From Paenibacillus sp. (GTDB lineage Bacteria > Bacillota > Bacilli > Paenibacillales > YIM-B00363): a stretch of 64,000 bases of DNA. Where the stretch lies: positions 1-64,000 of the forward strand of contig NZ_JAPSKE010000004.1 of the NCBI RefSeq assembly GCF_031177825.1, written 5' to 3'. A model generated the notes under the pieces. It ran no database searches and was not told where the DNA came from. It worked only from the letters and a program-made list of their open reading frames with translations. Positions 14,207 through 45,478 of the stretch are shown piece by piece (position 1 is the stretch's first letter; every line of letters starts with the position of its first letter). Both the position numbers and the translations under genes were made by a program.

Positions 14207-14268
14207 AAAAAAGTCCCTCCTCGCTTTCTTCCTTATGAATGTAACACGTCAATGTAGCTCCCTTTCAA

Positions 14269-15156: not shown

Positions 15157-15171
15157 CGTTCCCCCCCTCGG

Positions 15172-16086: not shown

Positions 16087-16181
16087 GGACATCCCTCCTT
16101 GATCCGGTCGCATCCGCAGGGGAGAAAAAAGGGAAGTCGGCAACACCAACTCCCCCCTTTCTTTCCCGCTCCGCAACCGAC

Positions 16182-21560: not shown

Positions 21561-22946
21561 TTATGTTTTCTGCAACGCGTTCACTTTCTCGTCGAGCTCT
21601 TTGAGGATATCCTCTAGCGACTTTTCCCCCTTCATATATGCCGCGAAAATGTTTCCGAACAAGGCCGTCTCGGCTTGCCCCGCTGCATTCAAGTACAAGT
21701 CCGTCACCCGAGGAACGTTATACTCGATGTATTTCATGAATGCATCGACGTTTTTGCCTTGGAGCTCCGGTTGTTCCTTCCAATAACTTTCTTGCTGCAG
21801 CGATTTTAATACCGGGACCCCGCCCAGCAAGTTGCTGGAGAACGCCTTGTGTCCTTCTTTGGTCAACGTGTAAGCGACGAAATCGGTCGCTTCCGCCAGA
21901 TGTTTGCTCGCCGGGTTCACGCCGTAGCCGCTTGTGCCGGATCCGATCGCATGTTGCTTCGGCAGCACGGGGAACGACACGACGTCCCACTCGAATCCGT
22001 TGGACTCCGCAGCGCTGATGACTGTACCGACATGGGGTCTTACGCCGAAGAAGAATGCCGCTTTGCCTTCTTCGAACTTCGGATAAGCCTCCGCATATTC
22101 GTTGGCCATGACGCCTTCCTTCATGAGATCGAGCACGATGCGGAACGCCTCCACCGTCTCCGGTCTGGAAAATTCCGCGAGTCTCGTTTCTCCATTCGCC
22201 AGAGGATATCCGCCTAACCCAAGGGCGAACGCGGTCCAGTTCGGCAGCCAATTGGCGTTGCCCGCGTTGCCGGTTTGGGTCACGTTGCCGCTCGCGTCCT
22301 TCTTCGTTACGGCTCGGGAAATGTCCACGAACTCTTCCCAAGTCCATCCGTCTTGCGGCATTTCGAAGCCCTCGTTCTCCAGCAGCGTCTTGTTGACGAA
22401 CGTCACCATCTGGCTATGGTCGCGCGGCGCGAAGTAATAGTTGTCGTTAAACAATCCGTAGGAAAGCATCCCTTCGGATACGTCGTTCAAATCGACGTTC
22501 ATTCGCTGGAAGGCGTCGTTCAGCGGGGCCAGCAATTTTTGTTCTTGGAACATGTTTACGAAGCCGTCAGGCAGCCAGTAGATGTCCGGCGCGTTACCGG
22601 CCGCCGCCATGGCGGGAATGTTGCCCGAGTGAGTGCCGACCAAATATTCGATCGTCACGTGAGGCTGCAGCTTCTTGAATTCGGCCGCAACCGCTTCGAA
22701 GGCTTTCTTATCCTCCTCTCCCAGCGTTCCGATCGTAATCGTGACAGGATCCTTCGATTCGGGCTCCTGCTCGGGAGCAGGCTCCGGATCGGCTGCCGGC
22801 TCCGGCGTCTCATTGGTCGTCGCAGGGGCTTCTTCCGGTTCGGCGTCGGCAGGAGTTCCGGAATTGCCGCTGCAGGCCGCCAATAGAGAAATGACCAACA
22901 TGGCCGCAACAGCGGTAACCAATAATTTCTTAATTCTCTTTTTCAT
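21561..22946 (-). CDS. Family-1 extracellular solute-binding lipoprotein
   Basis: 461 residues. Signal peptide with lipobox LAAC at about 22-25, then an acidic Pro/Glu linker (about 30-70), then a MalE/UgpB-like body: TITIGTLGEEDKKAFEAVAA, GNAPDIYWLPDGFVNMFQEQ, GWTWEEFVDISRAVT (family signature) and GEKSLEDILKELDEKVNAL at the end. It binds a glycoside or sugar for the two permeases encoded directly upstream. GGAGG precedes ATG. It is the last gene of the operon and one of two binding proteins in it. Confidence 0.93.
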   Translation of the reverse strand: MKKRIKKLLVTAVAAMLVISLLAACSGNSGTPADAEPEEAPATTNETPEPAADPEPAPEQEPESKDPVTITIGTLGEEDKKAFEAVAAEFKKLQPHVTIEYLVGTHSGNIPAMAAAGNAPDIYWLPDGFVNMFQEQKLLAPLNDAFQRMNVDLNDVSEGMLSYGLFNDNYYFAPRDHSQMVTFVNKTLLENEGFEMPQDGWTWEEFVDISRAVTKKDASGNVTQTGNAGNANWLPNWTAFALGLGGYPLANGETRLAEFSRPETVEAFRIVLDLMKEGVMANEYAEAYPKFEEGKAAFFFGVRPHVGTVISAAESNGFEWDVVSFPVLPKQHAIGSGTSGYGVNPASKHLAEATDFVAYTLTKEGHKAFSSNLLGGVPVLKSLQQESYWKEQPELQGKNVDAFMKYIEYNVPRVTDLYLNAAGQAETALFGNIFAAYMKGEKSLEDILKELDEKVNALQKT

Positions 22947-23016
22947 AAGTGTATCCTCCTTATTTTTTGATTCTCAGTTCCATCGAGTCATATTGCCGCC
23001 CGCCGGCGCATGAGCA

Positions 23017-23961
23017 TTAATCGCCGGCAAGCCCTGTTCGTTCGATCCCCTCCACCAGATAACGTTGGCCGACCATATATACAAGAAACAGCGGTGCGAC
23101 AATGAGGATGACGGCAGCCATCAGCATCCCTTCGTTGAGGTTGGCGTCTACGCTGCCCTTCAACAAATAATCGTAGTTGATAATTTCTAATTGCCACGGC
23201 ATGGTAAACATCTCGGCTTTGTTGGCGAAATACCGGGGGTAAAAGTTATCGTTCCAATGCCACACGAGCGAAAACACGGCAACGACGAATATCGCGGGCT
23301 TGGCGAGCGGCAGCATGACGCGGGAAAATACGCGGAACGCCCCCGCACCGTCAATGCGGGCGGCTTCGTCCAGCTCTCTCGGCAGCCCTTTGAAGAACTG
23401 TGTAAAGATGAGCGTGAACAACGCCCCGCGAATGCCTTGTGCGAACAGGGCGGGAAGAATCGTCGGCCAATACGTATTGATCAATTCCATATTCGCGTAC
23501 ATCGAGTAGAAAGCGATGATGGTCGTCTGCGGCGGCACGATCAAACAGATGAGCAGCAGCACGAAAATCAAACCCGAGCCTCGGAACCGATATCTTCCAA
23601 GGCCGTATCCCGCAATCGCGCATGATAGCAGCTGACCGAACATCGGGATGACCGAATTCATGAACGTATTTTTAAACGTAAACGGGAAATTCATCTTTTG
23701 ATATGCGTCCACATAATTTTGCCAGTAGACCGTATTCGGAAGCCAAGCCACGCTCTCGTCGAGCAAATCCGGGATGGACATGGTCGATCGGCTTAGCATG
23801 TAGATAAAGGGTAAAAGGAAGATAAACCCGAACTCAAGCAACACAATATAAACCAGACATTGCAGTCCTGCCTTTTTCGCTTTCTGCTTATATCGCAACA
23901 CAATATTTCGCTCGTTAACAAACGCTTTCGCCCGCAAAAACTTAGCCTCAGGTTTTATCAC
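23017..23961 (-). CDS. Carbohydrate ABC permease, MalG type
   Basis: 314 residues, six membrane segments (first about 33-55). The EAA loop is LDEAARIDGAGAFRVFSRVM. The start is GTG at 23961 with AAGGAGG ten bases upstream, inside the end of the preceding permease gene, so translation is coupled (14-base overlap). Forms the channel with that permease and serves the binding protein encoded downstream. No ATPase gene adjoins. Confidence 0.92.
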   Translation of the reverse strand: MIKPEAKFLRAKAFVNERNIVLRYKQKAKKAGLQCLVYIVLLEFGFIFLLPFIYMLSRSTMSIPDLLDESVAWLPNTVYWQNYVDAYQKMNFPFTFKNTFMNSVIPMFGQLLSCAIAGYGLGRYRFRGSGLIFVLLLICLIVPPQTTIIAFYSMYANMELINTYWPTILPALFAQGIRGALFTLIFTQFFKGLPRELDEAARIDGAGAFRVFSRVMLPLAKPAIFVVAVFSLVWHWNDNFYPRYFANKAEMFTMPWQLEIINYDYLLKGSVDANLNEGMLMAAVILIVAPLFLVYMVGQRYLVEGIERTGLAGD

Positions 23962-24793
23962 CGCTTATGAACCTCCTTCCAATCACGAATAGAATCAGAA
24001 CCATGATCAGCACCGACAAGAAATAGATCCAGCCGACGGCGGAGGCGACTCCGAATTCAATCTTCGCCAGGCTCCAATCGTTAATGAGCGCGAGCATCGA
24101 ATTTCCCGGATCCGTGAAGGAGTCGATCAATGCGTATACAATCGTCAAGATGACGATCGGCGCCATCGATGGCAGCGTAATTTTCCAGAAACACTCCCAG
24201 GGGGTCGCTCCGTCGATCTGAGCGGCTTCGTAGAGCGACCGGCTCACGGACTGGAGTCCCGCTAGAAAAATCAAAATTTCTATGCAACTTTTCCACAACA
24301 GTTCTCCCATTCTGGAAAACGTCCCTTCCCCGATCAACTCGGCGATCAGAAACGATGCGCCGCCGAACCGGTCGAGAAGCGAGAACTCGCTTGCTCCGCT
24401 GTCGTTCAAGATCGTGATCATCAATCCGCTGATGATGATCGGCGTGAAGTACACGGTTCTCCAATATCGCTTCCCGGCGATATTTCCGTTCAACAGCACG
24501 GCCGCAATCAACGAAAACACGGAGATGAGCGGCGCATCGATGAGCGAGCGGACGATCTGATCGCTAAAGCTTTGGAAGAAAATCACGTCGGATACTGCCG
24601 TCTTATAGTGCTCGAATCGATTCCAGGTCCCGTTCAACAGATTGCTCACATCGGCATCCGTAAAGCTGATTTTAATGCTTGCATACAGCGGATACAGCAT
24701 GAACAGCAGGAAGCCGACGATCCACACGGAAACGAACATGTACCCTTCAATAACCTTTTTCCGCTCTAAGCTGTATCCCCTACGTCGGTTCAT
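23948..24793 (-). CDS. Carbohydrate ABC permease, MalF type
   Basis: 281 residues. The N-terminus MFVSVWIVGFLLFMLYPLYA and six membrane segments are typical of MalF/UgpA-like permeases. The EAA loop is YEAAQIDGATPWECFWKITL. It overlaps the upstream DUF5696-type gene by ATGA and the downstream permease by 14 bases. Compact coupling with a DUF5696-type gene is the unusual point here. Confidence 0.92.
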   Translation of the reverse strand: MNRRRGYSLERKKVIEGYMFVSVWIVGFLLFMLYPLYASIKISFTDADVSNLLNGTWNRFEHYKTAVSDVIFFQSFSDQIVRSLIDAPLISVFSLIAAVLLNGNIAGKRYWRTVYFTPIIISGLMITILNDSGASEFSLLDRFGGASFLIAELIGEGTFSRMGELLWKSCIEILIFLAGLQSVSRSLYEAAQIDGATPWECFWKITLPSMAPIVILTIVYALIDSFTDPGNSMLALINDWSLAKIEFGVASAVGWIYFLSVLIMVLILFVIGRRFISGDKT

Positions 24794-27057
24794 TCGATCT
24801 CACCGCCTTCGCGGACCGCGTAGCCGAGCGGCTCTACCGTAACGCCTTCCACGGTCGCAGCCTGCTCGTTGTAGTTGACCCAAACGTGCGTGCCGTCCGC
24901 ATAAGTCGTCTTAAATATGCCTTCGGCGATTCGTTCATGCCCCGTCATTCGTTCCGTCGCAACAGGCTTCAGCGCCTGCGCCCAAGCGGCATAAGCTTCT
25001 GATACTTCCGGCATCCAGGTTTCGTACTGCGCGCTGAATAAAAAATCGTAATTCGTGTAACGCAGGTCGGTCGTTGTACGGTACGTCAATTCGAATGCAG
25101 GGATCGCTCCGTACTCGATCGCCTTCAACAGCTCTAGGCGCGCGTCGTCGCTTCGGTTCAGCGCGGAAGAGAAATAGGGTACTCTCCCGTGATACACCAT
25201 TTGCAAAAACGGGATATGCTCGTCGAGCAAATAATTCGGCGAGGATCTGAGCGGAATATCAAGGACGCGATCGGCATGCTTAACAGCGTAAACGTTGCCG
25301 TAATACACGCCGACGGAACCGAGTTTCTCTTTCGCCGAGCCGAGCCATCTTTCATAGTACGCTTGCGTCTCCCAGCGGCGAAGCGGATGCGCGTCGTTGT
25401 AGTCGCTCATCAGCGCCTCACCTACGTAGCGCATATTAATCGATCGAACGTCGACCGAATCAAGCTTCTCGAGACTTTGCGGGAGGTAGTCCTGTTCCGC
25501 CGAATAGGGACTTACTTTGTACCACTCCGAACTCCGGCGATACGAGCCGGCGGCCGAATCCGGATAATGGACGAACACGCGGCCGTCCGGTCTGCGGACC
25601 GCATCCGTTCGAAGCCGGACCCCGTCACGCTCCCTGCGATATACATCCGAATAGTTGTCCTCTAACGACGCCGCAATTCCATTTCGATCCATCCATTCGA
25701 TCAGCTCCGTCAAGCCGCGCTCGCCGCCGAACGCCTCCTCTATGGGAAAACGTCGGGGAAGACTTCCGTAGTACCCTTGATTTTGCCAACCCTTCAATTC
25801 CGCCGAGAAGCTTTCTACCCCGCCCCTCTTTAGCTCCTCCATCATCCTCTGCGCTTCCGAGAACGTGGTCATCGTCTCCATCCGCTTGGAATAGGAGTCT
25901 CCCCTGCTCTCGACGCCGAGGAAAATTTGAATCATCGGAGGCGGCGCTTCACCTACGGTTTTTGTCGTTCCGAGCAGTGCATCCCCGGCAAGCGTTGCCA
26001 AGTCCGCGTAAGCGGTTCGTTCGCCTGAGGCGAAGTCGAATCGAACGACCCGTTCCGAACGAATCAGACTGCGTTCGATGCGTTCGATCGCAGCGCTTTC
26101 CGTAGATTCGCCGTACGAGGTAACGTACTGTTTACGGAAGGCGAATTCGAAGCCGCCTCGGAAGAACGGATTGTTTCGGATGCCCGGCGGACTGACGATC
26201 ACCTTGGCATCGGCCGCCCCTCTCTGAATCGTCTGAACGACCCCGCCGCCGGACTTCACGATGCCGAATGCCGGAACGGCGACCGATTCGCCCAGGGGAG
26301 GACCGTCCATCGGATCGAACGTCGGATCCGCGCCGTAAATCCACTTGAAATATTCCGAACTCGCGGCCTGATTGTGTAACCGATCGAAGTAGACAAGCGC
26401 TCCGCTGCCGTCCGGGACGACCATATACCCTTCCTCCCCTTGCAACGCAGCGCCGAACATCGGCAGCACCTTAATCGATACGAGCGCGCTTCCTTCGTCG
26501 CTCTCTCGAATGCCCTCATCGGGAATTCGAACGTAGAAACCTCCGTCCTCGAGCACGAATTCGGCGATAAATGCGATATTCAACTCCTTCAGTTCGTAAT
26601 GGAACTGAATTCCGTTTTCGATTTTGTAAGCTTTCCACGTCGTCTCGTCATTGTTGACGCCGGTTTGCTGCGTTTTACTGAAATCGGCCGTGTATACGAT
26701 CTCGAACGGCGAACGGATATTCCGCGCAACCAGCGGACGTATGTCTGCGACTCCGGTCGGATCGGGGCTGCTCGCCCAAGTGAGGCCCGAGGCAGCATCT
26801 TTAATCGCGAACTGTTGATTGGCTGCATCCGCTAGCAATTCGAATCGCCCGTCCGACGCATACGTTTGAAATCCTTCCGCCATCGGAAGCTCGCCTCCTT
26901 CAGGCTGCGCCGCGGGTTGGAACGGATCGGAGGAAAACTCGGTTTGCATTCCGGAATCGGGAATGATCCACCACGCAAGCCACAGCGCGGCGGCGCCGAA
27001 CAATAGCAGCTTGACGGATCGTGCAAGCCGTCTGCGGTTCAGGAAGTTAATTGCCAA
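24790..27057 (-). CDS. DUF5696-type membrane-anchored surface protein
   Basis: About 755 residues. A single N-terminal membrane anchor (LLLFGAAALWLAWWIIP) is followed by a long extracytoplasmic region resembling DUF5696 proteins of Paenibacillaceae. Recognisable stretches are YMVVPDGSGALVYFDRLHNQ, YYGSLPRRFPIEEAFGGERG (a glycosidase-like barrel feel, with ASLEDNYSD) and FLQMVYHGRVPYFSSALNRS. I see no assured catalytic residues. I choose TTG 27057, with GGGAGG nine bases upstream; it overlaps the preceding gene by 11 bases. Its place between two permease pairs suggests it acts on, or presents, the imported glycan. Family membership is from memory; function unknown. Confidence 0.75.
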   Translation of the reverse strand: MAINFLNRRRLARSVKLLLFGAAALWLAWWIIPDSGMQTEFSSDPFQPAAQPEGGELPMAEGFQTYASDGRFELLADAANQQFAIKDAASGLTWASSPDPTGVADIRPLVARNIRSPFEIVYTADFSKTQQTGVNNDETTWKAYKIENGIQFHYELKELNIAFIAEFVLEDGGFYVRIPDEGIRESDEGSALVSIKVLPMFGAALQGEEGYMVVPDGSGALVYFDRLHNQAASSEYFKWIYGADPTFDPMDGPPLGESVAVPAFGIVKSGGGVVQTIQRGAADAKVIVSPPGIRNNPFFRGGFEFAFRKQYVTSYGESTESAAIERIERSLIRSERVVRFDFASGERTAYADLATLAGDALLGTTKTVGEAPPPMIQIFLGVESRGDSYSKRMETMTTFSEAQRMMEELKRGGVESFSAELKGWQNQGYYGSLPRRFPIEEAFGGERGLTELIEWMDRNGIAASLEDNYSDVYRRERDGVRLRTDAVRRPDGRVFVHYPDSAAGSYRRSSEWYKVSPYSAEQDYLPQSLEKLDSVDVRSINMRYVGEALMSDYNDAHPLRRWETQAYYERWLGSAKEKLGSVGVYYGNVYAVKHADRVLDIPLRSSPNYLLDEHIPFLQMVYHGRVPYFSSALNRSDDARLELLKAIEYGAIPAFELTYRTTTDLRYTNYDFLFSAQYETWMPEVSEAYAAWAQALKPVATERMTGHERIAEGIFKTTYADGTHVWVNYNEQAATVEGVTVEPLGYAVREGGEIE

Positions 27058-29149
27058 CGTAGAACGCCTCCCTTGCAATCGCCCGCCCGAAGTCGATGAC
27101 GTTCATTCCCAATCCGAAGACCAGCATATAGAGCAGGACGAACACGACGCAGCTGACGGTCGTAAGCCCCAGAATCCCGATCGCTTTGCCCGTTTCGTAG
27201 CTGTGCGTTTCCCTGACGCTGACGAAAAACAGGAACGCCGACCAGAGCACAAGGATCGTCTCGAACAATTGAACGAACTGTTGTTCCTGCCATGTTAACA
27301 AATGAGTTAATGCGTACAACGGGATCGAGAAAAAGATGAATGGCGTAAAGTTGTATGCGGTAGCGATAAACACATCTCTCCAACGACCCTCTCCTTCCGT
27401 AATGGTAGCGATGCCGTAGTTGACGACGCTCCATATGATCCAGAGCAGTATGGGCTGAAGAACGACAAATTCCCATTGTACGAATTGCAGGGGCACAGGC
27501 CGGTAGACGAAGCCGGTGAGCCAATATTTCGAAGACGTCGCAACCGCATACAGAGCGATAAGAAGGAACGCGTGGCTCCATTTCCCTTTGTTTTCGTAGC
27601 GGAGCTCTTCGTATCCCAAGAACGGATGCAGCATCACGCGGTATGCGTACTTCAAGAACCTCAACAGTCGGATCCCAGGGTTTAGGAACCAGTACCGTTC
27701 GATCCGTTCCGGCAGGCGTCCCCCGATCTTGTTGCGGAAGGTAAAGAAAAGATAGAGGAGCGCGAACGCAATCAGTGTGCAGGATGCGATGATGTCGAAA
27801 TGCTCCTTCACGTACTGTCTGCGAAATTCGTAATAGGCTTCCGAGAATCCGTCTTTGTCGTAAGCTTCGCGGAAGGAAGCCATCGCTTCCGCGTAGTCGT
27901 CCTGGCGCATTTCGATTTGTCCCATCGCCTGCAGGGCGAGCTCGTAGAAATTATTGTTATCCCGTACCTGCTGCCAGGGCTCGAACGACTCCTCGTATTT
28001 TCCTTCGCCGTACAGCGCGTTGGCCTCATGAACGGTGGCGCTGAACGCTGTCTTGCGAAATTTCAAAACTGCGTTCAACATCTCGTCGAGTACGTACAAA
28101 TTGCCTTCGGCGTCCGCTTCGACGGCGACCCCCGACAACTTGTTACCGACGCCCTGACCGTTGCTGCCGAAGGCGAACAAGGCGCGTCCGCCGACGTCGT
28201 ATTGATACATGCGGCCGAACGTCTGGTCGAGGATCGTCATGTTCCCCTTCCGGTCGATCGCGACGTCGACGAAGTTTTGCGTTCGATCCTCCCCATGTAA
28301 AGACGGGTCGGTAAAATCGCGTCTCCCTCCCGGGTATATGTCGCCTCCGGCCATATTGAACTTTCGGATCTGTTTTGCGCTTGCCCCCGTAGTACTGGCA
28401 TATAGATACCCATCCGGCGCCAGCGCGACATTATTGAAGGAGTACGGCAAATTGATATAAGCGCCCGCGCGCTGCTCCTGATCGTACAAAAACCGGATCA
28501 GCGCGTCGAACCAAGTCGCCTCCACTCGGTTGCCCCCGAAATACCCCCGAAACTGCCCTTCCCGGTCCAGCATCAGCAGTCCCTTATGGTCGCCGCTGTT
28601 TACGACATAAAAATATTTGCGCGAATCGACGATGACTTTCACCGGTTGATATTTGAATGGGTCGCGAAGGAGCGGCGAAGACGGTTTGCCGACTTCGCGC
28701 AGGAAGCCGCCTTCGGCGTCGTATTGCACGATTCGTTCGCTCAAGCTGTCCGCAACGTATATGCTGCCGTCTTCCTCATCTACGAACACGCCGCGCGGCG
28801 CGGCAAGCGCACCGGGGCCGCCCGCTTCCCCGCCCGCTCCGATGACGAGCAGCACGTTCCCGTCGGCATCCGTTTTGACGACCCTTTTATTCTCCGTATC
28901 GGCGATATACAGGTGATCCTGGCGATCGATGAACAAATCCTGCGGTTTATTGAACGCGCCCGCTTCGTCGTTGTCGAGGGAGATGTACCCGTCGGGAACG
29001 TATGGCGCCGGAATTTTCAATTGAAAATGATCGGGACTGATATAGTAATTCGGGTATGGCGTATCCGCCTTCCCCTGTCCCGGAACCATAGAGACTATAA
29101 ACACGATCGCCAGGAGGGACGTAACGGCACATTGTACGAAACGGCTCAA
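27047..29149 (-). CDS. NHL-repeat propeller fused to Yip1-like membrane domain
   Basis: 700 residues. Signal/anchor at 1-28. NHL-type beta-propeller repeats span about 60-360 (FNKPQDLFIDRQDHLYIADT, LAAPRGVFVDEEDGSIYVAD, LSGVAVEADAEGNLYVLDEM). A TPR-like helical pair (about 375-440, YEESFEPWQQVRDNNNFYEL) follows, one membrane segment near 455-475, then a multi-span Yip1-like domain (about 510-695). The start is TTG 29149 with GAGGGGG nine bases upstream. The propeller would be outside, perhaps as a lectin or scaffold for the neighbouring transporter. Sits 15 bases after a permease gene and overlaps the DUF5696-type gene. Function unknown. Confidence 0.8.
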   Translation of the reverse strand: MSRFVQCAVTSLLAIVFIVSMVPGQGKADTPYPNYYISPDHFQLKIPAPYVPDGYISLDNDEAGAFNKPQDLFIDRQDHLYIADTENKRVVKTDADGNVLLVIGAGGEAGGPGALAAPRGVFVDEEDGSIYVADSLSERIVQYDAEGGFLREVGKPSSPLLRDPFKYQPVKVIVDSRKYFYVVNSGDHKGLLMLDREGQFRGYFGGNRVEATWFDALIRFLYDQEQRAGAYINLPYSFNNVALAPDGYLYASTTGASAKQIRKFNMAGGDIYPGGRRDFTDPSLHGEDRTQNFVDVAIDRKGNMTILDQTFGRMYQYDVGGRALFAFGSNGQGVGNKLSGVAVEADAEGNLYVLDEMLNAVLKFRKTAFSATVHEANALYGEGKYEESFEPWQQVRDNNNFYELALQAMGQIEMRQDDYAEAMASFREAYDKDGFSEAYYEFRRQYVKEHFDIIASCTLIAFALLYLFFTFRNKIGGRLPERIERYWFLNPGIRLLRFLKYAYRVMLHPFLGYEELRYENKGKWSHAFLLIALYAVATSSKYWLTGFVYRPVPLQFVQWEFVVLQPILLWIIWSVVNYGIATITEGEGRWRDVFIATAYNFTPFIFFSIPLYALTHLLTWQEQQFVQLFETILVLWSAFLFFVSVRETHSYETGKAIGILGLTTVSCVVFVLLYMLVFGLGMNVIDFGRAIAREAFYVGN

Positions 29150-29164
29150 GACGTTACGCCCCCT

Positions 29165-30004
29165 CTACGATTTAATACCCGAATGCGCCATTGTGGATAA
29201 CACTTGCCGTTGAAACAACACGAAGATGAACACGGTCGGCACCGTCATCAGGAACGTCGCGGCGGCGTTCGCGCCGCCGCGCGCCACCCCTTGCCCGTTC
29301 ACGGTCGATAAATAATAAGGCAGCGTCTTCATTTGTTCGGACTGCGTAAATAATGCGGAGGACCCGGCATCGTTCCATACCGCGGTAAAGGAGAGGATGA
29401 CGACCGTCGCCCACGCCGGGCGAATTAACGGCAGCGCGATTTGGAGCAATTGCCTCCATTCCCCCGCACCGTCCACCTTGGCCGCTTCGAAGATTTCGTC
29501 CGGCACCTGCTCCAAAAATTGCTTCATGAGAAACAGGCCGATCGGAAAGGCCAACTGCGGCAAAATAAGCGCGTGATACGTATCCATGAGACCTAAGTTG
29601 ACGATGACGAGGTATCGCGGGATTTCCACCACTTCCGGCGCGAACATCAGCGATATGACGATCAGGCTGAAAAACAGGTTCCGCCCAGGGAACTTATGCT
29701 TTGCGAGCGGGAAGCAAGCAAGAGACCCGAGCAATACGGTGAATGCGACCGTAACGCCGCTGACGATCACGCTGTTAAACACATAGCGCACGAGCGGAAT
29801 GCGATCGCCGCTCATCGCAAACAACAAATCTCTAAAATTATCAAGCGTCGGGGACTGAACAAAAAAGCGAGGAGGGTACAGAAACAACTCCTCTTGGGGC
29901 TTGAATGCGGTGCTGACCAGGAAGATCAACGGCAGCATCATGAACAAGCCCAGCAGCGTCAGATACAGGATAATGAACAGTTGACCGGCGTCTATACGTT
30001 TCAA
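29165..30004 (-). CDS. Carbohydrate ABC permease, MalG type (first pair)
   Basis: 279 residues from TTG 30004 (LKRIDAGQLFIILYLTLLG), which has GAGGAG nine bases upstream and lies four bases after the previous stop. The open frame extends further but inside the upstream gene. Six membrane segments; EAA loop FEAAKVDGAGEWRQLLQIAL. Channel partner of the permease encoded immediately upstream; with the 1003-residue binding protein they form the first of two complete import systems in this operon. Confidence 0.9.
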   Translation of the reverse strand: MKRIDAGQLFIILYLTLLGLFMMLPLIFLVSTAFKPQEELFLYPPRFFVQSPTLDNFRDLLFAMSGDRIPLVRYVFNSVIVSGVTVAFTVLLGSLACFPLAKHKFPGRNLFFSLIVISLMFAPEVVEIPRYLVIVNLGLMDTYHALILPQLAFPIGLFLMKQFLEQVPDEIFEAAKVDGAGEWRQLLQIALPLIRPAWATVVILSFTAVWNDAGSSALFTQSEQMKTLPYYLSTVNGQGVARGGANAAATFLMTVPTVFIFVLFQRQVLSTMAHSGIKS

Positions 30005-30008
30005 TGGT

Positions 30009-30923
30009 TTATTCTCCTCTCGAAGAAAACACCGCAAAGCATAATCTTCCGAGACCGAAAATGAAGAAGAAGAGCACGACCGATACGGCTGCGGCATAAC
30101 CCATTTCATACCGGATCATCGCGTAGTCTTGAAGGTGCAGCACGATGGTGTGTCCCGCGTACAACGGACTGGGAAAACCGGCGATCGCCTTACTGATTTC
30201 GCCGACCCGGAACGATCCGACGACGGCGAGCACGGCGCCGAACAGCATCTGGGGTTTCATTGCAGGAATCGTAATATACCAAAGCTCTTGGAAACGAGAG
30301 CGGATTCCGTCTACTTTTCCGGCGTCGTACAGCTCTGAGTTCACCGTTTCGAAGCCTGCGAGAAAAGCGAGAAACCCGGTGCCCAAACTCATCCACAGCG
30401 AGATGACGATAATGACGGGCATGATGTATTCGATGTTTTGAAGCCATTGGATCGGTTCGCTGACGAAGCCGGCTTGCATGAGAATACTGTTTAAATACCC
30501 GTAGCTGTCGTTCGCGAATACGACGAGCCATACGACGGCCATCGCGACGCCGCTCGTGAGCGAAGGAACATAAAAGATCGTCGTATAATACGGGCGGATT
30601 CTTTTCGGAATTTGATGGATCAACCAGGCGAACAGGAAAGCCAAGATGTATCCGATCGGTCCGGTCACCAGCGCGAAGTAGAGCGTGTTCATCAGCGCTT
30701 TGATAAAAATCTCGTCGTCTACGAACAGCGTTCTGAAATTGGACCATCCCGTCCAAACCGGGGGTTGAAGGATGTTATAATACGTGAAGCTCAATACGCC
30801 CGATGCGGCCGTAGGCACGATGATGAATAGTGCGAACAGGAGAAAGAAGGGAGCCAGCATGAGATAAGACGATCTCCACTTCCAGATGTCGCGAAGCAAA
30901 TCCTTCACCGGCTCGACGTTCAA
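30009..30923 (-). CDS. Carbohydrate ABC permease, MalF type (first pair)
   Basis: 304 residues. Begins with a cytoplasmic helix, then SYLMLAPFFLLFALFIIVPT; six membrane segments. The EAA loop is a variant, YDAGKVDGIRSRFQELWYIT, with a three-residue insertion before the usual basic stretch. Stop and next start are four bases apart. It is preceded by the unusual 1003-residue binding protein. Confidence 0.9.
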   Translation of the reverse strand: MNVEPVKDLLRDIWKWRSSYLMLAPFFLLFALFIIVPTAASGVLSFTYYNILQPPVWTGWSNFRTLFVDDEIFIKALMNTLYFALVTGPIGYILAFLFAWLIHQIPKRIRPYYTTIFYVPSLTSGVAMAVVWLVVFANDSYGYLNSILMQAGFVSEPIQWLQNIEYIMPVIIVISLWMSLGTGFLAFLAGFETVNSELYDAGKVDGIRSRFQELWYITIPAMKPQMLFGAVLAVVGSFRVGEISKAIAGFPSPLYAGHTIVLHLQDYAMIRYEMGYAAAVSVVLFFFIFGLGRLCFAVFSSRGE

Positions 30924-30953
30924 GACTGCTCCCCCCTCTCGCCTCGTGTACGT

Positions 30954-33900
30954 TCACCTGTCGGTCTTGTCGTCGATCATCGTCTCGTATTCTTCCCGCT
31001 TGCGCTCCAGCTCTTTATCGATTTCCTTGGCCGCATCCTCTAGCGCAATGCGTTCGTTCTCGCCGAGCAGCACCGCTTCGTTCCACGCATTCGTCAGATG
31101 ACGCTGCGTATAGTACCCGCCTAGAATGACCGGCTGCTCGCGAAGCCAACTCCATTGCTCCCGAATGGCAGCGAGCTGATCCTCGCTCCAAGCCATGCCT
31201 TCCATCGCGGATACATTGGCGCTGTTCCAGCGGGAGCCGACGCCGACTAGACTCTCCACTTCCATGCCGAACCGAACTTGAATGTCCTCCGACATCCACC
31301 ACTTCATGAACTCCCACGCCTCTTCTTTGTACGGAGTGGAGCTCATCATGACGGCCGTCTGAGCGGTCGTGCCGAGTAGAGTGCTCTGCGCTCCTGCTCC
31401 GGACGCGCTGCGGTCGATCGTGCCGTCTTCGCGTTCGGTACCGGGCAGCGGGATCATCTTCCACCTGCCATTAAGCTCGGGTGCTCCCGTAGAGAGCTTT
31501 ACGAAGAAATCGTAGTTGCCGATGCCGATCGGCATCTCGCCCGTCCGGAAGCGTTGATAAAAATCGGCCTGAAGCGGGATTTTATAGTTAATAAACAGAT
31601 TGACCCATTCTTTGAAAGCGCCCAGCGCTTCAGGGGTATCGAGTGCGGACTCGGTTCGCTCCTCGTTATAGAAATCTCCGCCGTGCTGGAATAAGAACGG
31701 CGTATACCCGCCGGAGCCGGCCGGGTAATAAAATTGCATGCCTTCTTCCTGCAGCAGCGGAAGCAGCGCGTACACATCCTTCCATGTCTGAGGCGGCTCC
31801 GCGCCGATGCGGTTCAGGATGTCTTCCCGGTAGAACAGCAAGGTAAAATCCAACGTCTCCGGGATCGCGTACAGCCCTCCCTCGAACTCTAGCGGCACCA
31901 ACGCTTCCTCCACGAATCGGGAGCGAACGTCTTCGATGTCCGCGAACGCGTTCAAATCCGCCAGCGCGCCTCGCACCGAAAATTCTACCGGGATGCTCGG
32001 GGAGACGCCCAACGCGACGTCCGGGGCTTTCCCGCCGGTATACGCGAGCAGGAGCAAATGCTCCGACCCCATCGGGATCGTATTGATATCTACCTTGATG
32101 CCTGTCTTCGGCGTAAACTCCTCCGTAACCAACGTCTTGATCATATCCGTCCACTCGCGCCCGCGCGACACCCATACTCTCAGCACTTTTTCGTCTTCTT
32201 TCACGGTAGCGCGGTCGGTACTTTTCGGTCTCCTGAACGATTCCACGAATTTCTCGTACGTGGCGGCCATATGCTCCGTCATCCTGGATCCTTCCAACGG
32301 ATATGTCGTTCCGGGCTTCGCGACGGTCATATAATCGAAATAAAGCGGCTGCTCCTTCATGCTTTGCAGCATCGTGCCTAGCGCTCCCTGTACGGTGGCG
32401 AGTTCGTTCAACTTATACGGAATTCCCTGCGGATCCCGCGCCATGCTCTTGAACAAGGATGCCGCCGTTTGCAGCGTCTGGCCGTAAGAAGGAACTTTAC
32501 CGCCGTTCACCGCCTTGACATGATCGTAACTGTCCTGAAACACCTGTGCGCCGGTCTCCAACCGCTCAGCCAGATTCGGAATGTACAGTTCCAAATTCCA
32601 ATCCTGATTGCGGTCGGTCGACAGCTTGCCGTTCTGGTCCCGCGAGGAAGCCGTAATTTTCACGACGTCCGTACTCAAGTTGGTAAGATCATCCAACATG
32701 ATTTCGATCTGATAGATAAGGTCGCGTACGGGCCCCATTGCGCCGGTCATCGAGATTTCATGTTTTCCTTTCTCAAGATAAAATAAATACGGTTCGTCGT
32801 CCGCATTTTTCAGCGGCTCCAGGTGCCACCCTCGAATAAAGGGGAAGGCATATTCCTGCATCTCCCGGAAAGGAATTTCGCCGTCGATTTGGATCGCTCG
32901 ATGCGAAACTTGATGGAAGGTCGGGGTCGTGTACCGGAAAGCGATTTCGTATAACCCGTCCTCGGGAGCTTCGAATGCCCAAGTCGCCGTTTGACCGCCT
33001 CGGGTCCATTTGCCGCTGAACATGTTAAACCTCGTTCGGGAAACCGCTTTCGGCTCGGTGTTCGGATCGTCGTTCCAAGAAGGCCGCACCGACAGTTCGG
33101 ATACCTCGAGCGGCGTCTCCGATTGGAACTTCAGAAGATCCGACTGCGCGGGCTTATAGCCCTGAGCTTCGTATTCGGAAGCTTCCTCTTCATAGGAAGG
33201 CAGGATTAGCGGCTTCCTTACGATGACGGAGCCGACGGCCATCGGTTCCCGAAGATCGACGAGACGAAACGTATGCTTCCCTCTTTCCAAGTAAAACCGG
33301 TACGGCTCATGGTAAAATTTCTCGGGTTCTTCGACCGGTTTGATACGCCATCGGAAGATTTCCTGCTGCGCGGATCGAACCTGATTGCCTTCCTCATCGA
33401 ACCGCTGCTCGTCGTCTTCCCGCCAATACCGATGGAACGCGATGCGGGACGCTTCTTCGAACGGCGCTTCGCCGTCGATTAGAAACCGCCGTTCGACGCT
33501 CGACTTCTTCCCTTCCATCGGGAAATATTCGATGTCGATGTTGTACATGGCGGATTCGGGAACGTCGAACGTCCACTCGACCCAGCCGCCGTCCCCGTCG
33601 GTGACGACGGCTGGCTTTCCTTCCACTTCGCGAACTTCGATATTGCCTGAGGAATCCGTATAAGCCGCCGCGTCGACGCGGATGTCCTCCCCCGCGTAAT
33701 CGACATATCCATGCTCCGCATATGTAGCTAATACGGTGCCGTACTTCACTTCCGGATCGAGAACGTAATCCAGCTTCAGCGCCGGTTCGCTCAGCGCATC
33801 CGTACGCTCCGGACCTGCGAATTGATCCCCGCGGGGGGAGGGCTGATTTAATATAAGGAAGGCTGCTCCAATGACGGCTAAGACGGCCGCTGTAGTGACC

Positions 33901-33965
33901 ACGAATTTTCCCCGTATGAAACCGCCGCCGGCGTTCGCCGGAAGACGGACCTCCGCTTTCGCCAT
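30954..33965 (-). CDS. 1003-aa two-part extracellular solute-binding protein
   Basis: A membrane anchor at about 22-41 (not a lipobox) is followed by about 540 residues holding two jelly-roll, carbohydrate-binding-like domains with echoing ends (PYRFYLERGKHTFRLVDLRE and EPYLFYLEKGKHEISMTGAM). The last ~400 residues are a family-1 solute-binding domain: LRVWVSRGREWTDMIKTLVT, GKAPDVALGVSPSIPVEFSV, RFGMEVESLVGVGSRWN. Ordinary binding proteins are 400-560 residues, so this one is about twice the normal size. It probably holds a polymer with the N-terminal modules and feeds the adjoining permeases. GGAAGGGGGG precedes the ATG. Confidence 0.85.
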   Translation of the reverse strand: MAKAEVRLPANAGGGFIRGKFVVTTAAVLAVIGAAFLILNQPSPRGDQFAGPERTDALSEPALKLDYVLDPEVKYGTVLATYAEHGYVDYAGEDIRVDAAAYTDSSGNIEVREVEGKPAVVTDGDGGWVEWTFDVPESAMYNIDIEYFPMEGKKSSVERRFLIDGEAPFEEASRIAFHRYWREDDEQRFDEEGNQVRSAQQEIFRWRIKPVEEPEKFYHEPYRFYLERGKHTFRLVDLREPMAVGSVIVRKPLILPSYEEEASEYEAQGYKPAQSDLLKFQSETPLEVSELSVRPSWNDDPNTEPKAVSRTRFNMFSGKWTRGGQTATWAFEAPEDGLYEIAFRYTTPTFHQVSHRAIQIDGEIPFREMQEYAFPFIRGWHLEPLKNADDEPYLFYLEKGKHEISMTGAMGPVRDLIYQIEIMLDDLTNLSTDVVKITASSRDQNGKLSTDRNQDWNLELYIPNLAERLETGAQVFQDSYDHVKAVNGGKVPSYGQTLQTAASLFKSMARDPQGIPYKLNELATVQGALGTMLQSMKEQPLYFDYMTVAKPGTTYPLEGSRMTEHMAATYEKFVESFRRPKSTDRATVKEDEKVLRVWVSRGREWTDMIKTLVTEEFTPKTGIKVDINTIPMGSEHLLLLAYTGGKAPDVALGVSPSIPVEFSVRGALADLNAFADIEDVRSRFVEEALVPLEFEGGLYAIPETLDFTLLFYREDILNRIGAEPPQTWKDVYALLPLLQEEGMQFYYPAGSGGYTPFLFQHGGDFYNEERTESALDTPEALGAFKEWVNLFINYKIPLQADFYQRFRTGEMPIGIGNYDFFVKLSTGAPELNGRWKMIPLPGTEREDGTIDRSASGAGAQSTLLGTTAQTAVMMSSTPYKEEAWEFMKWWMSEDIQVRFGMEVESLVGVGSRWNSANVSAMEGMAWSEDQLAAIREQWSWLREQPVILGGYYTQRHLTNAWNEAVLLGENERIALEDAAKEIDKELERKREEYETMIDDKTDR

Positions 33966-34026
33966 TGTCCCGCCCCCCTTCCTATACCGTTACCTAAACC
34001 GGCCCTGCCCTGTCGAGAAACCGATG

Positions 34027-35715
34027 TCAGCTCTTCATCTCGATCCAATCCGTTCCCAATACGTTCCCGGTACCGTCCGTCAATCGGTACCATCCGATGA
34101 GGTACCTGTCGTTCAACAAAACAGGCTCGGTATTGTAAACCGTGTCGCCTTTCCGCCATGTACCGCTGATCGGAACGGAATTTTTGACGTACTGGCCGTT
34201 GAACGAAAGTTGATCGATATTCGGATCGTATTCGATGGAGCCTTTCGCATGGTTTCCATTAATGAATACGGGCTGCTTATTGCTGACGACCCGGATCGAC
34301 GTTCCGACATCGGACGCGAGTCGATTGCCGGAGATGTGAGCATTCTCGACAAAATCCACGAGAATATCGTAAACTTTCATGCCGGAGATAAAGTTGCCTT
34401 CGATCGTCGTATTGTTTTGATTCCAGCCGATGCCGATCCCGATCGCTTGCGTATTCGTGCCGCCGTAATGACCGATCGTGTTATGCTCGATTCGGCAGGA
34501 AGCGATGGAGCCCGGTACGCCGAAATTGCCCGCGTAAATTCCATATAAAGCCGCTCCCTCCGTCAGCGCGATCCAGTTATTGCTGATCGTGAGGCCGCCT
34601 TCCGTCGTCAAATAATTGATCCCGTATTTTCTGCAATAGTCGAAATCGCACTCGGTAATAACGCCATAGAGGCATCGAACCCAGTTTACGCCCATATCGA
34701 AGCCGAATGTGAGCGTTTTCGTAATGACGAGGTCTTCCGGCCTGTGCTCCGTATTACCGCCGGGTTCGTAATCGAACGTAGCATCCACGTAGATGGCCAT
34801 AGAATCGCCGCTTCCCGTAATCGTACCGCCGCCCCGAATAATCTGGCAGCTGTCGATGACGTTTTTCACGCTTTGTCCGATCACCTTGATGCCGTTCCAG
34901 ACATCGTTCATGTAACATCCGTAGACTCTGGAATGCCATACGCCGCGCAAGCTCATGCCGGTGCCGTAGTAAGCTATGTAAATGTTGGAAAAGGTAATGC
35001 CCGTCGTTCGTTGCAGTTGAGCCGTACCCGGCACGTTAATGGCCGTATAATTCGCCGCTTCGCTGCCGAATATGGCGAACTTCTCTACCACGACCGGCGA
35101 CAGTCCGTTGGAGACCGTGAACGTCAAGCAATCGCAGGCGGAACCTAACAATTGGGAGGCATAGCCCGTGCCCTGGATCGACGTCAGTTCTGGAATGATA
35201 ACGGTCGATGTGACCCTAAATACGCCTGCGGGAATATACACGGTTCCGGTTCGCGCCGCATTCACGCACTGCTGAATCGCCGCCGTGTCGTCGGTTACCC
35301 CGTCCCCTTTCGCGCCGAACCACTTAATATTGAGCCCGCCTTCGTAAACCCTCATGAATCTGGCCCCAGACGCCGTAACGAGGATCGTGCCCGTATTATC
35401 TAGTGACGTCACATCCGTCTCATCGTACGCGAACACGCCTTCCTGTCCCTTGTCCGTAATATAGTAGACGGTGTTCGGCGAGGGCGTCGTGTTCAAAGCG
35501 CGCAAGCCGGCAATGGTGGTCTGCGGTAGCAGCATCTCGGCTTGTTCCCGTCTCTTCCCCGAGTGCTCGGCGGCGCTTCCTTGGCCGTCCTCCGCCGCAT
35601 GAGCGACTCCGGCCAACCCGCCGGCGGCGGCGGCGATGCCGAACATCCCGATCGACGTCAACAATTTCCTTCTCGTAAGGAACAAATCTTTCTCCGCGTT
35701 CTGGTTTTCGGTCAT
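34027..35715 (-). CDS. Secreted right-handed beta-helix protein (Pectate_lyase_3), Tat-like signal
   Basis: About 562 residues. The N-terminus has [20 protein letters not shown], a twin-arginine-type signal ending near VAHAAED. A Ser/Thr-rich linker region follows, then the Pectate_lyase_3 entry motif [20 protein letters not shown] and a parallel beta-helix (about 150-480). Such proteins are polysaccharide lyases, epimerases or phage-tail-like depolymerases; no catalytic set is visible. ATG 35715 (AAAGGATG upstream) is preferred to an ATG 33 bases earlier. It lies 61 bases before the 1003-residue binding protein and is probably its cognate glycan enzyme. Confidence 0.82.
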
Positions 35716-35744
35716 GGGCTCAACATCCTTTCCTATGTTTAAAT

Positions 35745-36743
35745 TCATTGCTTCAACATGGCGGCGAACGCGCAGCTGTAAATCCAGTGACCGTAGTCGT
35801 TCGGATGGTTAATATTGTTCAGGAGCAAGCTCTCGGGCGTTTTCCCTGAGGATAGCTCTTCTTTCCATAAAGCATGTGCGTCTGCGACGCCGATTCCATA
35901 GTCGACGCCTAGTTTCTTCATCGTATCCGCATACAAATGGGTTGCGCCGCTCGTATGTTTCCAGTGCGGATTCGGCTCGCAAGGCGTGACCAGTAGGATG
36001 TCGCTTCCGCATTCCTTGCGGATCGTCTCGATCATGTACCGAAGATTGCTTCTGAAAAGCTCAAGCGGAATGGTGTTTCCATGGGGATGTTGATTTTGAT
36101 CGTTCATTCCGTAACCGATGGACACCAAGTCCGGCTGCAGCGGAACCACATCGTCAAGGATCCGACTTGCGCCGCCGTCGCTGGCTTCTCCGCCGACGGA
36201 CTTGTTCACGATCTTGATTCGCCCTTTCGGAAACAAGAGCCGCAAGCTTTCCGCGAATCGACCGTAATACGCCAGCCGTTCTTCGCTCGCTTCCCCGCCG
36301 GCGCTGATGCTGTCCCCATAGACGACATACAACGCTTCTTCCCCGAAAGTAAGCTTGCGGGCGATTCGGTTCAAATACGCGGACCGTTCGACGTCCGACG
36401 CGGTAAACCGATCGTCCGTTCGCGGTTCGTCGGTCCAATAATCCGCATATACGGTGTAATTGCGGTTGCTATAATCCGGATATTGCGTATGGTCGAACGG
36501 AGACACGCCGTACATCGGGTGCTGCGAACCGTCCGGAATCCGGCTTCCCTCCGTTCGGCGAATCGTTCCTTGATCGTAGTCGACGATGAAGTCTTTCCCT
36601 TCCTCAAACCGAACGTGCTCAGCGTCCGAAGAGAGCGGACTTTTCCTCACCTCCAGCGCCTGGCCGGCGATCGGCCGATATCGAAGCGGCAGGGGTTCTT
36701 CCTTAACGAACACGAACGACTCGGTCTTCTGCTTGCTCATCAT
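35745..36743 (-). CDS. SGNH/GDSL-family hydrolase
   Basis: About 332 residues. Block [13 protein letters not shown] supplies the nucleophilic Ser, block III is [10 protein letters not shown] with Asn, and block [14 protein letters not shown] has the catalytic Asp-x-x-His arrangement (HPND). A beta-sandwich precedes the SGNH domain, as in carbohydrate esterases of CE2/CE3-like enzymes. No signal peptide, so it acts inside the cell, perhaps removing acetyl groups from imported oligosaccharides. Two starts are possible: ATG 36743 with GGGGAGGG 13 bases upstream, or ATG 36791, which overlaps the preceding gene and lacks a ribosome site. Confidence 0.85.
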
Positions 36744-36772
36744 GAATTCGTTATGTCCCTCCCCTCTTGCCG

Positions 36773-37768
36773 TTATGGCTTGCTCCGCCATTCGAGGACC
36801 ACCCCGAGGAACGGCTCCGACTTTTCCATAATTAGCATCCAGGCATTCTCCGCCTCGGCGGCTGAAAACTTATGAGTAATCAGGGGAAGGGTTTGAAGCC
36901 ATCCCTCATGAATGCCGGCAATCGTCTCGTCCATACGTTGTTTCGTCCACCCGGACGGGCAGTGAAGCGTCATCTCCTGTGCGCGCAGTCGTTGAATATC
37001 GATCGTTCCTTCGGTCCCTAGGAATCCGGCTGATACGAGATGGCTGTTCCATGTCATGGCCGGTTGGATTTCGAGGAACGCGTCCATGTCCCCGACCGTG
37101 TCGACGACGACCGCGATATCCCTCCGACCGCCGAGCCAGCGAGACAACGGCTCTTTCCGCGTATTGAAGGAACGGATCGGCGAGGGAAGCAATGACAGCC
37201 GAGCATCGTGCCGGCCTAGCACCGTAACTTCCGCCCCTCGGTACGAGAGCGATTGGGCGGCCCATTGCCCCACCATGCCGTCGCCGATGACGATGGCCTG
37301 GTCGCCGGGGGTGACGTCCGGGCGGAACCCGCAGTTGTACCCGACCTGCGTTAGCACCGCCCCGCTGTACGCCAGCGGTTCGACCCCTTCGGGAAGCTTC
37401 CAAACCTGGCTTCTGTGCGTAACGGAAGGGTTGATATGCCCGCCCGAATCGAATTTCATTCCGTTGACCTTACTGATGGAGGCGAAAACCCAGTCTCCGG
37501 GCTCGATGTCTGGAACGGATTCGCCGACGCCTCGCACGATCCCGACCTTCTGATATCCGGCCACCTGAGGGAACGGCAATGCATCCCCCGGCCTCGGCGC
37601 TTGTTCCCCGGTAACTCGCTCTCCATACAGGAAGGAGGATTCCGTCCCGTTGCTGATCCATGAATAGACTAAATCGACGACTACATCCTCCGGCCCCGGA
37701 TCCGGAACCTCGACTTCCATAAAGCGGACCTGCCTAACGCCGGTAAATACGACCGCATCAGCTCGCAT
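36773..37768 (-). CDS. MDR-family zinc-type alcohol dehydrogenase-like protein (copy 1)
   Basis: 331 residues. GroES-like N-terminal half, then the Rossmann motif VIGDGMVGQWAAQSLSYRGA at about 146-165. The GHE zinc motif of classical alcohol dehydrogenases is replaced (SNGTESSFLYGER), as in the bacteriochlorophyllide/threonine-like group that lacks catalytic zinc. ATG 37768 has GGAGG seven bases upstream. It overlaps the next dehydrogenase gene by 11 bases. Likely oxidises a sugar hydroxyl during breakdown of the imported carbohydrate. Confidence 0.85.
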   Translation of the reverse strand: MRADAVVFTGVRQVRFMEVEVPDPGPEDVVVDLVYSWISNGTESSFLYGERVTGEQAPRPGDALPFPQVAGYQKVGIVRGVGESVPDIEPGDWVFASISKVNGMKFDSGGHINPSVTHRSQVWKLPEGVEPLAYSGAVLTQVGYNCGFRPDVTPGDQAIVIGDGMVGQWAAQSLSYRGAEVTVLGRHDARLSLLPSPIRSFNTRKEPLSRWLGGRRDIAVVVDTVGDMDAFLEIQPAMTWNSHLVSAGFLGTEGTIDIQRLRAQEMTLHCPSGWTKQRMDETIAGIHEGWLQTLPLITHKFSAAEAENAWMLIMEKSEPFLGVVLEWRSKP

Positions 37769-38738
37769 GTTCATCCTCCGTAAGGGAATCGACGAAATCC
37801 GTCTTGGGGTAAGCGTACACTTTAATCGCTTCTTGCCTCTTCAGAAGCTCAATCGCCTCGTCGTAGCGGTAGAAAGGTACATGGTGCGTCTGAAGGCATT
37901 CGGTATTTAACCCCTTGTTTAACACGAGATCGATGAGTAACGCTTTGTCTTCTTCGCCGAACCGGCGATATTTATAAGATTCTAAAATCGTACCCTTCAA
38001 CCAAAGATGCTGGCCGTAGCGGACTTCGCCCTTCAATACGCCGAAAATCATGAGATGGGAATCGACCTGCTCGAGCAGCCGCTGCACGGAAGCCGAAGCG
38101 CCGACGCAATCGTATCCTAAATCGAAACGCTCCTCCCCGAGCTCATCCGGGTGCTTCGCAGTGCCGATCCCTAAGCGGTTGACGAGCTCGATTCGATCGC
38201 GATTAATTTCTACGGCCGTAACGTTCGACGCGCCGAGCAGCTTAGCCGCCTGCACCGCCAACATCCCCGCCGGGCCGAGACCGGACACGAGCATCGATTT
38301 TCCGGTAATATCGCCGAACTGCAGTAAGCCGATTAACACGCATTTCAGCAACTCGAACGATACCGCTTGCTTCCACTCGATCCCGTCCGGCAGTTTAATG
38401 AGTTCTTGTTCACGGTAATTCAAATATTGCGCATACGCCCCGTTACCGCCGATATGCTCGAGCGCGGCGACCCGATCCCCTACTTTCAAGGAGCGCACAT
38501 TGGTTCCCGCCGCGACGACCGTTCCCGCAGCCTCATGTCCCGGAAAGCCGGGAAGCAAAGGATAGTCGGGCCGCCGATCCGCGTGGAACATGTCCTTGCC
38601 GCCCATCATGTGAATGTCCCAACGCGGACAGGTGGAGACGATTTCGATTTGTACCGTTACTTGATCGTCTTCCGGTTCAGGAAGATGGATGTCGATAATT
38701 TCGTAACGATTCTGCTCGGTAATGTGTAAAGCTTTCAA
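37758..38738 (-). CDS. MDR-family zinc-binding dehydrogenase (copy 2)
   Basis: 326 residues. Catalytic-domain motif FPGHEAAGTVVAAGTNV (GHE with the zinc-ligand His and Glu) and CPRWDIHMMGG near the N-terminus. Rossmann motif VSGLGPAGMLAVQAAKLLGA at about 168-187. It starts at TTG 38738 with AAGGAAG ten bases upstream. This is the first gene of the long operon, 215 bases from the divergent AraC regulator, with the tandem repeat between them. A sugar-alcohol or keto-sugar substrate is inferred from context. Confidence 0.87.
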   Translation of the reverse strand: MKALHITEQNRYEIIDIHLPEPEDDQVTVQIEIVSTCPRWDIHMMGGKDMFHADRRPDYPLLPGFPGHEAAGTVVAAGTNVRSLKVGDRVAALEHIGGNGAYAQYLNYREQELIKLPDGIEWKQAVSFELLKCVLIGLLQFGDITGKSMLVSGLGPAGMLAVQAAKLLGASNVTAVEINRDRIELVNRLGIGTAKHPDELGEERFDLGYDCVGASASVQRLLEQVDSHLMIFGVLKGEVRYGQHLWLKGTILESYKYRRFGEEDKALLIDLVLNKGLNTECLQTHHVPFYRYDEAIELLKRQEAIKVYAYPKTDFVDSLTEDEHAS

Positions 38739-38816: not shown

Positions 38817-38953
38817 TTAAGTGTACATCGAGAAGAAAGCGCTGTCTTTGCACTCTGTTACCCTTACGAAAAAACTCAATCGGGAAGATTCGCGAAGTTC
38901 AAGCAATTGATTTGCACATCATAGACTTTTCGGTTGCTGAGGAGGTAAGTAAA

Positions 38954-41776: not shown

Positions 41777-41818
41777 GAGGCCGTCCCGAAGTAGATGTAA
41801 CTACTTCGGGACAGCCTC
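41777..41818 (-). terminator. Terminator of the polysaccharide-utilisation operon
   Basis: GAGGC-GTCCCGAAGTAG pairs with CTACTTCGGGAC-GCCTC (18 pairs, one mismatch) around ATGTAA; the minus strand continues TTTCTTTT. It lies 49 bases beyond the restored GH88 stop codon at 41867, which supports the frameshift reading of that gene. Confidence 0.85.
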
Positions 41819-41866
41819 AAGCAGCAACCATGGGTCGTTCGCGGTTCGTCGTTCTGCGCTTCCCGC

Positions 41867-43001: not shown

Positions 43002-43039
43002 TGTGTCGCGCGCCTCCTTTTCCATATTGCAGATAAAAC

Positions 43040-45277: not shown

Positions 45278-45478
45278 CGTCCTCATCCCCCTTACTCTCC
45301 GCCGTAGCCATCGTTCACAGCCCCAATCTAACGGAGCGCGGGCGTCCCGGCAACTATCAAGTTTTGAGGCGGTAACAACGGTTGCGGCCCCGTGCGGCAA
45401 CGGCGTTCCCGGCCCGAGCTAACAGTTCTTGAGCAACTTGCACATCTTGAATATCCGCCGAATCTACCGGGGAAAAAG

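Follow-up and report, generated by a model that had tools for sequence, protein, structure and literature searches.

In a 64,000-nt window of Paenibacillus sp. (the whole stretch analysed, positions 1 to 64,000 of contig NZ_JAPSKE010000004.1), the open reading frame (ORF) listing placed twelve ORFs, all on the minus strand, at positions 21561-38738. Transcribed in this order are genes for a zinc-type dehydrogenase, a dehydrogenase-like protein, an SGNH hydrolase, a pectate-lyase-like beta-helix protein, a large substrate-binding protein (SBPbig), two permeases (PermB1 and PermB2), the NHL-Yip1 protein, the DUF5696 protein, two further permeases (PermA1 and PermA2) and a conventional substrate-binding protein (SBP). 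The successive gaps along the run are -17, -19, -4, 61, 30, -101, 15, -32, -4, -14 and 70 bases, those of -101 and -32 hinging on the choice of start codon. A first-pass annotation, made by a model from the letters of the sequence, had described such a run of twelve overlapping or closely spaced same-strand genes, and the ORF listing and gap values bear it out. The region is one copy of a multi-copy cassette; its core is the seven genes from SBPbig to PermA2, and the other five genes of the window run are accessory.

The core genes all lie on the minus strand. SBPbig (30954..33965, 1003 aa) has an N-terminal membrane-anchor-like segment, a weak CBM35/golvesin-like region and a C-terminal SBP_bac_1 domain. 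PermB1 (30009..30923) is a permease with an EAA-like coupling motif, and PermB2 (29165..30109) a permease with an EAA motif; the ATG listed for PermB2 gives the 101-base overlap, and its true start may be further downstream. NHL-Yip1 (27047..29149, 700 aa) consists of a leader, an NHL propeller, a TPR-like part, a transmembrane (TM) segment and a Yip1 membrane domain, while DUF5696 (24790..27078, 762 aa) has an N-terminal TM anchor and a predicted three-domain fold of the type of glycoside hydrolase (GH) family 129. PermA1 (23948..24793) and PermA2 (23017..23961) are permeases with EAA motifs. Pfam and NCBIfam agreed with the first-pass annotation on the two permease pairs, which are of sugar-importer type, on the two very different binding proteins (SBP_bac_1 proteins of 461 and 1003 aa), on the joining of NHL and Yip1 in a single 700-aa protein and on the DUF5696 protein (532 bits). 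The translational coupling that it proposed between the two middle genes and the permeases fits the overlap of NHL-Yip1 with DUF5696 and the 4-base overlap of DUF5696 with PermA1; PermB2 and NHL-Yip1 are separated by 15 bases.

Conservation of gene order was followed in several sets of loci using search profiles made in house from same-genus loci. The order counts are those of a six-frame search, the ORF caller having missed core genes under longer opposite-strand ORFs in GC-rich loci. The named loci were the best 80 of 548 relatives found with a DUF5696 alignment and are biased to near relatives. The order-level and phylum-level sets comprised 20 loci each, one per genome, hand-picked among the matches listed; the sets overlap (L077/L057, L083/L195, L131/L159 and L143/L172). 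The order SBPbig-PermB1-PermB2-NHL-Yip1-DUF5696-PermA1-PermA2 on one strand was found in 75 of the 80 named loci; in L083 and L141 the halves are reversed, with SBPbig-PermB1-PermB2 coming second (and, in L141, separated from the first half by other genes), and contig ends truncate L092 and L155. Complete cassettes made up 34 of 37 loci in the genome of the window and five same-genus genomes, with the remaining three at contig ends, and 19 of 20 loci in the order-level set, with one cut. In the phylum-level set NHL-Yip1-DUF5696-PermA1-PermA2 was present in all 20 loci, with SBPbig-PermB1-PermB2 directly before it in 12 (L179 partly cut) and after it in three (L188, L191 and L195). The core thus divides into two sub-modules, which are seldom found apart. 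Swapped halves were seen in L083, L141, L188, L191 and L195, all outside Paenibacillus (L083 and L195 probably represent a single locus), and the swap marks the sub-module boundary. Among pairs found by the ORF caller, the gap between neighbouring core genes did not exceed 50 bases in 556 of 568, including 97/97 for DUF5696/PermA1 and 100/106 for NHL-Yip1/DUF5696. Chance clustering of the twelve genes was rejected, the order being conserved in named, order-level and phylum-level loci.

The two middle genes had been expected to be conserved with permeases, and they stay with them in every examined locus not cut by a contig end. They also keep together across genomes. Strong DUF5696 matches (E below 1e-100) occurred in 33 of 348 phylum-level genomes, with none strong in the other 315, and NHL-Yip1 matches (E at most 1e-40) occurred in the same 33 genomes and as one fragment in G261. 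Weak-only DUF5696 matches at E 0.001 were present in nine further phylum-level genomes. DUF5696 exceeded the Pfam cut-off in 123 of 198 order-level and 35 of 348 phylum-level genomes; two of these 35 are borderline, one of the two being a PF11308 protein. The genome of the window has eight DUF5696 matches, six of them intact genes and two of them fragments at contig ends, and NHL-Yip1 adjoins all seven loci that extend to the upstream side. The partial genes at the end of contig C19 and the start of C22 (L046 and L045) are perhaps one gene broken by the assembly. A related genome, G005, has 14 DUF5696 matches.

An N-terminal TM-like segment was found in 26 of 30 SBPbig members, and weak matches to CBM35 and to golvesin-like domains in 7/30 each; the window SBPbig has the golvesin match only, under its cut-off. 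Its SBP domain is nearest to Lin1841. The propeller of NHL-Yip1 matches NHL structures, the PknD sensor domain among them, and is accompanied by a TPR-like stretch, a hydrophobic leader, a TM segment at residues 453-471 and more TM segments inside the Yip1 part. The protein is fused in 70 of 115 loci and encoded by two adjacent genes in 45; 42 of those 45 are split at profile positions 469-498, just past the TM helix behind the TPR-like part. This alternation of fused and split forms suggests that the two parts act together. All four permeases keep the EAA-type coupling motif (same-genus alignments of 27-32 sequences), slightly degenerate in PermB1 (YDAGKVDG), and both pairs should therefore engage an ATPase.

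Of 55 DUF5696 members, 49 have a TM-like segment at the N-terminus; the ectodomain of the window protein covers about residues 60-762. By structure comparison of a model, the window protein has a predicted GH129-type fold across all three domains, at about 16% identity to NagBb (PDB 5WZN) and DagB/ZgGH129 (PDB 5OPQ). At E 0.01 none of the 55 members matched PF11308 (GH129); they matched DUF5696 only, one member also matching a GH97 model. In the accessible part of PMC5698469, the canonical strand-4 acid is D435 in NagBb and D486 in DagB, the second catalytic acid of DagB is E517, and the second catalytic residue of NagBb is not conserved in DagB. Residues were mapped from sequence alignment and predicted strands, not by superposition, and the strand-5 end was taken as the place of the second acid. 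On this mapping the window protein has R550/Y551 and no acid at the strand-4 end (D or E at 549-551 in 28/55), and no acid at 592-596 at the strand-5 end (acid in 27/55); both acids are present in 12 of 55 relatives. Given the missing canonical acids and the lack of a PF11308 match, DUF5696 was not filed as a GH129 member. The alignment tips the balance slightly towards a window protein that is not a GH129-type hydrolase, and only slightly, since the case of DagB reveals variation of catalytic residues within the fold. A PF11308 search in 20 relatives gave no match, but control genomes were equally silent, and the result is no evidence of absence. The sole PF11308 match in 398 phylum-level genomes, L158:25-2535 (plus strand), also scores just above the DUF5696 cut-off.

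The enzyme genes flanking the cassette vary from copy to copy. Ten flanking proteins from six loci of the window's own genome were scanned: GH32 was found near one copy, GH76 and GH32 near a contig-start copy, and GH35 with a LacI regulator, together with an MGH1-like protein with F5/8 domains (opposite strand), an SMP-30-like protein and a response regulator; one of the ten had no domain match. For the named loci, 38 of the 75 complete loci (alternate ones) were used, with 46 upstream and 75 downstream proteins. SBP_bac_1 was found in 23 upstream and 13 downstream proteins and OB_MalK in 13 upstream. Among the 25 of 72 downstream families listed there were at least five GH26, three GH2, two GH113 and two GH43 proteins, and at least one each of GH95, GH30, GH9 and SOGP phosphorylase. 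A MalK gene lies near 35 of the 80 named loci and a conventional SBP gene near 72. Five OB_MalK proteins exceed the cut-off in the window's own genome, three of them adjoining cassettes (C17, C24 and C47). The window importer presumably shares an ATPase encoded elsewhere, such as the OB_MalK protein on C39.

Taken together, the region is read, at a probability of roughly 0.6, as a conserved cassette of seven genes for glycan import, forming the transport core of Gram-positive polysaccharide utilisation loci. That the cassette imports carbohydrate is very likely indeed; that its components form one co-assembled machine is a more doubtful matter, with odds slightly short of even. SBPbig, tethered by its N-terminal helix, and the tethered GH129-fold DUF5696 protein would hold glycan chains on the outer side of the cell membrane, and NHL-TPR-Yip1 would be the membrane scaffold positioning both above the permeases. 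Oligosaccharides supplied by SBPbig and the conventional SBP would enter through the two permease pairs, powered by a MalK-type ATPase; some copies have a gene for it alongside, and for the window copy it would be supplied in trans. The substrate would be set by the enzyme genes flanking each copy; for the window copy, the pectate-lyase-like protein and the esterase suggest an acidic plant-type glycan. A surface machine capturing, trimming and importing a complex glycan had been suggested at the outset, and that suggestion is partly supported: the SBP and weak CBM-like domains, the MalK genes near many copies and the varied adjoining glycosidases support capture and import, whereas trimming by DUF5696 is not demonstrated; the protein has a GH129-type fold but, in the window copy and by alignment, no acids at the canonical strand-4 and strand-5 ends.

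The accessory genes are likewise on the minus strand. The first gene of the run (37758..38738) encodes a zinc-type alcohol dehydrogenase family protein, and next to it lies the dehydrogenase-like protein (36773..37774); of the two dehydrogenases first proposed the former is clear, while the latter has no Pfam match at E 0.001. Pfam confirmed the SGNH/GDSL hydrolase (35745..36791) and the Pect-lyase/beta-helix protein (34027..35748). The latter has a leader with the motif TRRKLL, which we take to resemble the Tat (twin-arginine) motif, in keeping with the Tat-type character first assigned to it. The conventional SBP (SBP1, 21561..22946) is a lipoprotein-like SBP_bac_1 protein of 461 aa. Upstream and divergent is an AraC-type regulator gene (38912..39802, plus strand); downstream on the minus strand are a histidine kinase (19633-21414) and an AraC-type response regulator (17994-19652), together spanning 17994..21414. 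Promoter and terminator scans of the region were at chance level and uninformative. In Paenibacillus thermotolerans (L077/L057/L199) the same twelve genes and the adjoining AraC gene are kept, with a DUF5696 protein 71% identical to the window copy; the kinase and response regulator pair was not seen within 6.7 kb downstream of that operon.

Elsewhere in the window, GH88-like and heparinase II/III-like genes beside the cassette (41817-45400, minus strand) indicate an acidic glycan pathway there. A 1640-aa protein with CBM96, pectate-lyase-like, beta-helix, CBM9 and FIMAH domains (45519-50441, minus strand) is adjoined by SBP and permease genes (50525-54132). Genes for a MocA-type oxidoreductase and a permease form another importer-like set (13226-17873, minus strand) together with two ORFs that had no Pfam match at E 0.001, one of 276 aa and one, binding-protein-like, of 563 aa. 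A 437-aa ORF (9254-10567, minus strand) has a borderline RamC_N match (28.7 bits; cut-off 27).

The main rival to the glycan-import cassette is a pair of ordinary, independent sugar ABC importers in one operon, with DUF5696 an active exo-glycosidase of relocated acids that trims oligosaccharides, NHL-Yip1 its partner, and no joint complex. Several findings weigh against the cassette, and those on the separable sub-module, on the fold and acids of DUF5696 and on DagB also count in the rival's favour. The SBPbig half is missing from named locus L132, and SBPbig-PermB1-PermB2 is absent or weakly matched in five of the 20 phylum-level loci (L180, L181, L185, L186 and L192, of which L180, L185 and L192 lie on short contigs), so the two halves can part, and the NHL-Yip1/DUF5696/PermA sub-module can stand by itself (L132, L181). 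Distance correlations among the core proteins were 0.83-0.95 (110 cassettes), but those with the flanking conventional SBP reached a similar range, 0.81-0.91 (54 of the 110), and are therefore no proof of contact. The window operon has no ATPase gene. Within the GH129-type fold of DUF5696, other acids are kept (D559 in 51/55, E655 in 53/55 and an acid at 619-620, D619/E620 in the window copy, in 53/55), R568, W431 and N641 being further conserved residues, and DagB is, in the accessible part of PMC5698469, an active enzyme of GH129-like fold with one of the two catalytic residues of NagBb in common; DUF5696 might thus still be catalytic. Even so, independent importers would have no need to keep seven genes in the one order that 75 of 80 loci share, and an active DUF5696 sits poorly with a window copy lacking, by alignment, an acid at either catalytic strand end and with the small share of relatives, 12 of 55, that have both. 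We regard this rival as fairly unlikely, at somewhat better than one chance in four.

Two further explanations concern the role of the cassette. NHL-Yip1 and DUF5696 could act as a unit for sensing or envelope surveillance, signalling glycan or cell-wall fragments and regulating transport from outside the uptake path; the NHL propellers matched by that of NHL-Yip1 include the PknD sensor domain, and two-component and AraC genes are nearby. This is improbable, as neither protein has a kinase, phosphatase or DNA-binding domain match at E 0.001, both genes are placed between permease genes and not with the regulators, and the two-component pair was not seen downstream in P. thermotolerans. The cassette could otherwise recycle the cell's own envelope polymers and not food glycans, with which several copies per genome and surface-anchored proteins would agree. 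The varied catabolic glycosidases that differ as neighbours between copies, and the 315 of 348 phylum-level genomes with no strong match, make such recycling highly improbable.

Under the glycan-import reading the cassette looks like a widespread yet little described polysaccharide-feeding route in these bacteria. No description of it was found in the openly searchable literature (titles and starts of abstracts, with subscription literature and CAZy outside the scope), nor any paper using the term DUF5696. If the reading is true, DUF5696 and NHL-Yip1, neither of which has an assigned function, take part in glycan uptake, and polysaccharide loci can be spotted by their DUF5696 gene. The mechanistic question is then what keeps two permease pairs linked, phylum-wide, to a glycosidase-fold protein whose catalytic acids are poorly conserved. 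A bolder proposal is a distinct Bacillota glycan importer, in which a double MalFG-like transporter is built round the NHL-TPR-Yip1 scaffold, with the GH129-fold protein, its hydrolysis lost, as a chain-holding receptor by the CBM-bearing tethered SBP. With up to 14 copies per genome and different enzymes beside them, it would be a Gram-positive functional counterpart of SusCD and a sequence marker for polysaccharide loci. We hold this to be unlikely, at about one chance in four, because it joins several inferred steps and because, with DagB in mind, missing canonical acids are not proof of lost catalysis.

Among known systems, the cassette resembles CUT1 importers (MalEFGK2-like) in its BPD_transp_1 permease pairs with EAA motifs, its SBP_bac_1 proteins and the MalK-type ATPase near many copies; the window operon itself has paired EAA-motif permeases and two SBP_bac_1 binding proteins. 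It differs from them in having two permease pairs per unit and a membrane-anchored 1000-aa binding protein, and in always carrying NHL-Yip1 and DUF5696. Unlike the GH129 enzymes NagBb and DagB/ZgGH129, DUF5696 is TM-anchored and tied to ABC permeases, and by alignment its window copy lacks the canonical acids. Gram-positive polysaccharide utilisation loci (gpPUL) are defined, in the accessible part of PMC12827396, by an enzyme, a transporter and a regulator in one locus, and the xanthan cluster of Paenibacillus taichungensis is given there with two binding proteins and permeases. By domain, the window fits this definition, with Pect-lyase/beta-helix and SGNH proteins, two ABC permease pairs, and AraC and two-component regulators, enzyme activity being predicted only; unlike gpPUL generally, it has as its transporter core a fixed set of seven genes that recurs with different enzymes. 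No TonB-dependent receptor (SusC) or SusD was matched by Pfam at E 0.001 among the twelve window proteins. In the SusCD loci of Bacteroidota, a diagnostic transport core is repeated while the neighbouring enzymes change by locus. The cassette differs from these in using ABC importers, with no SusCD component in common, and resembles them in that the transport unit recurs while the enzymes around it change.

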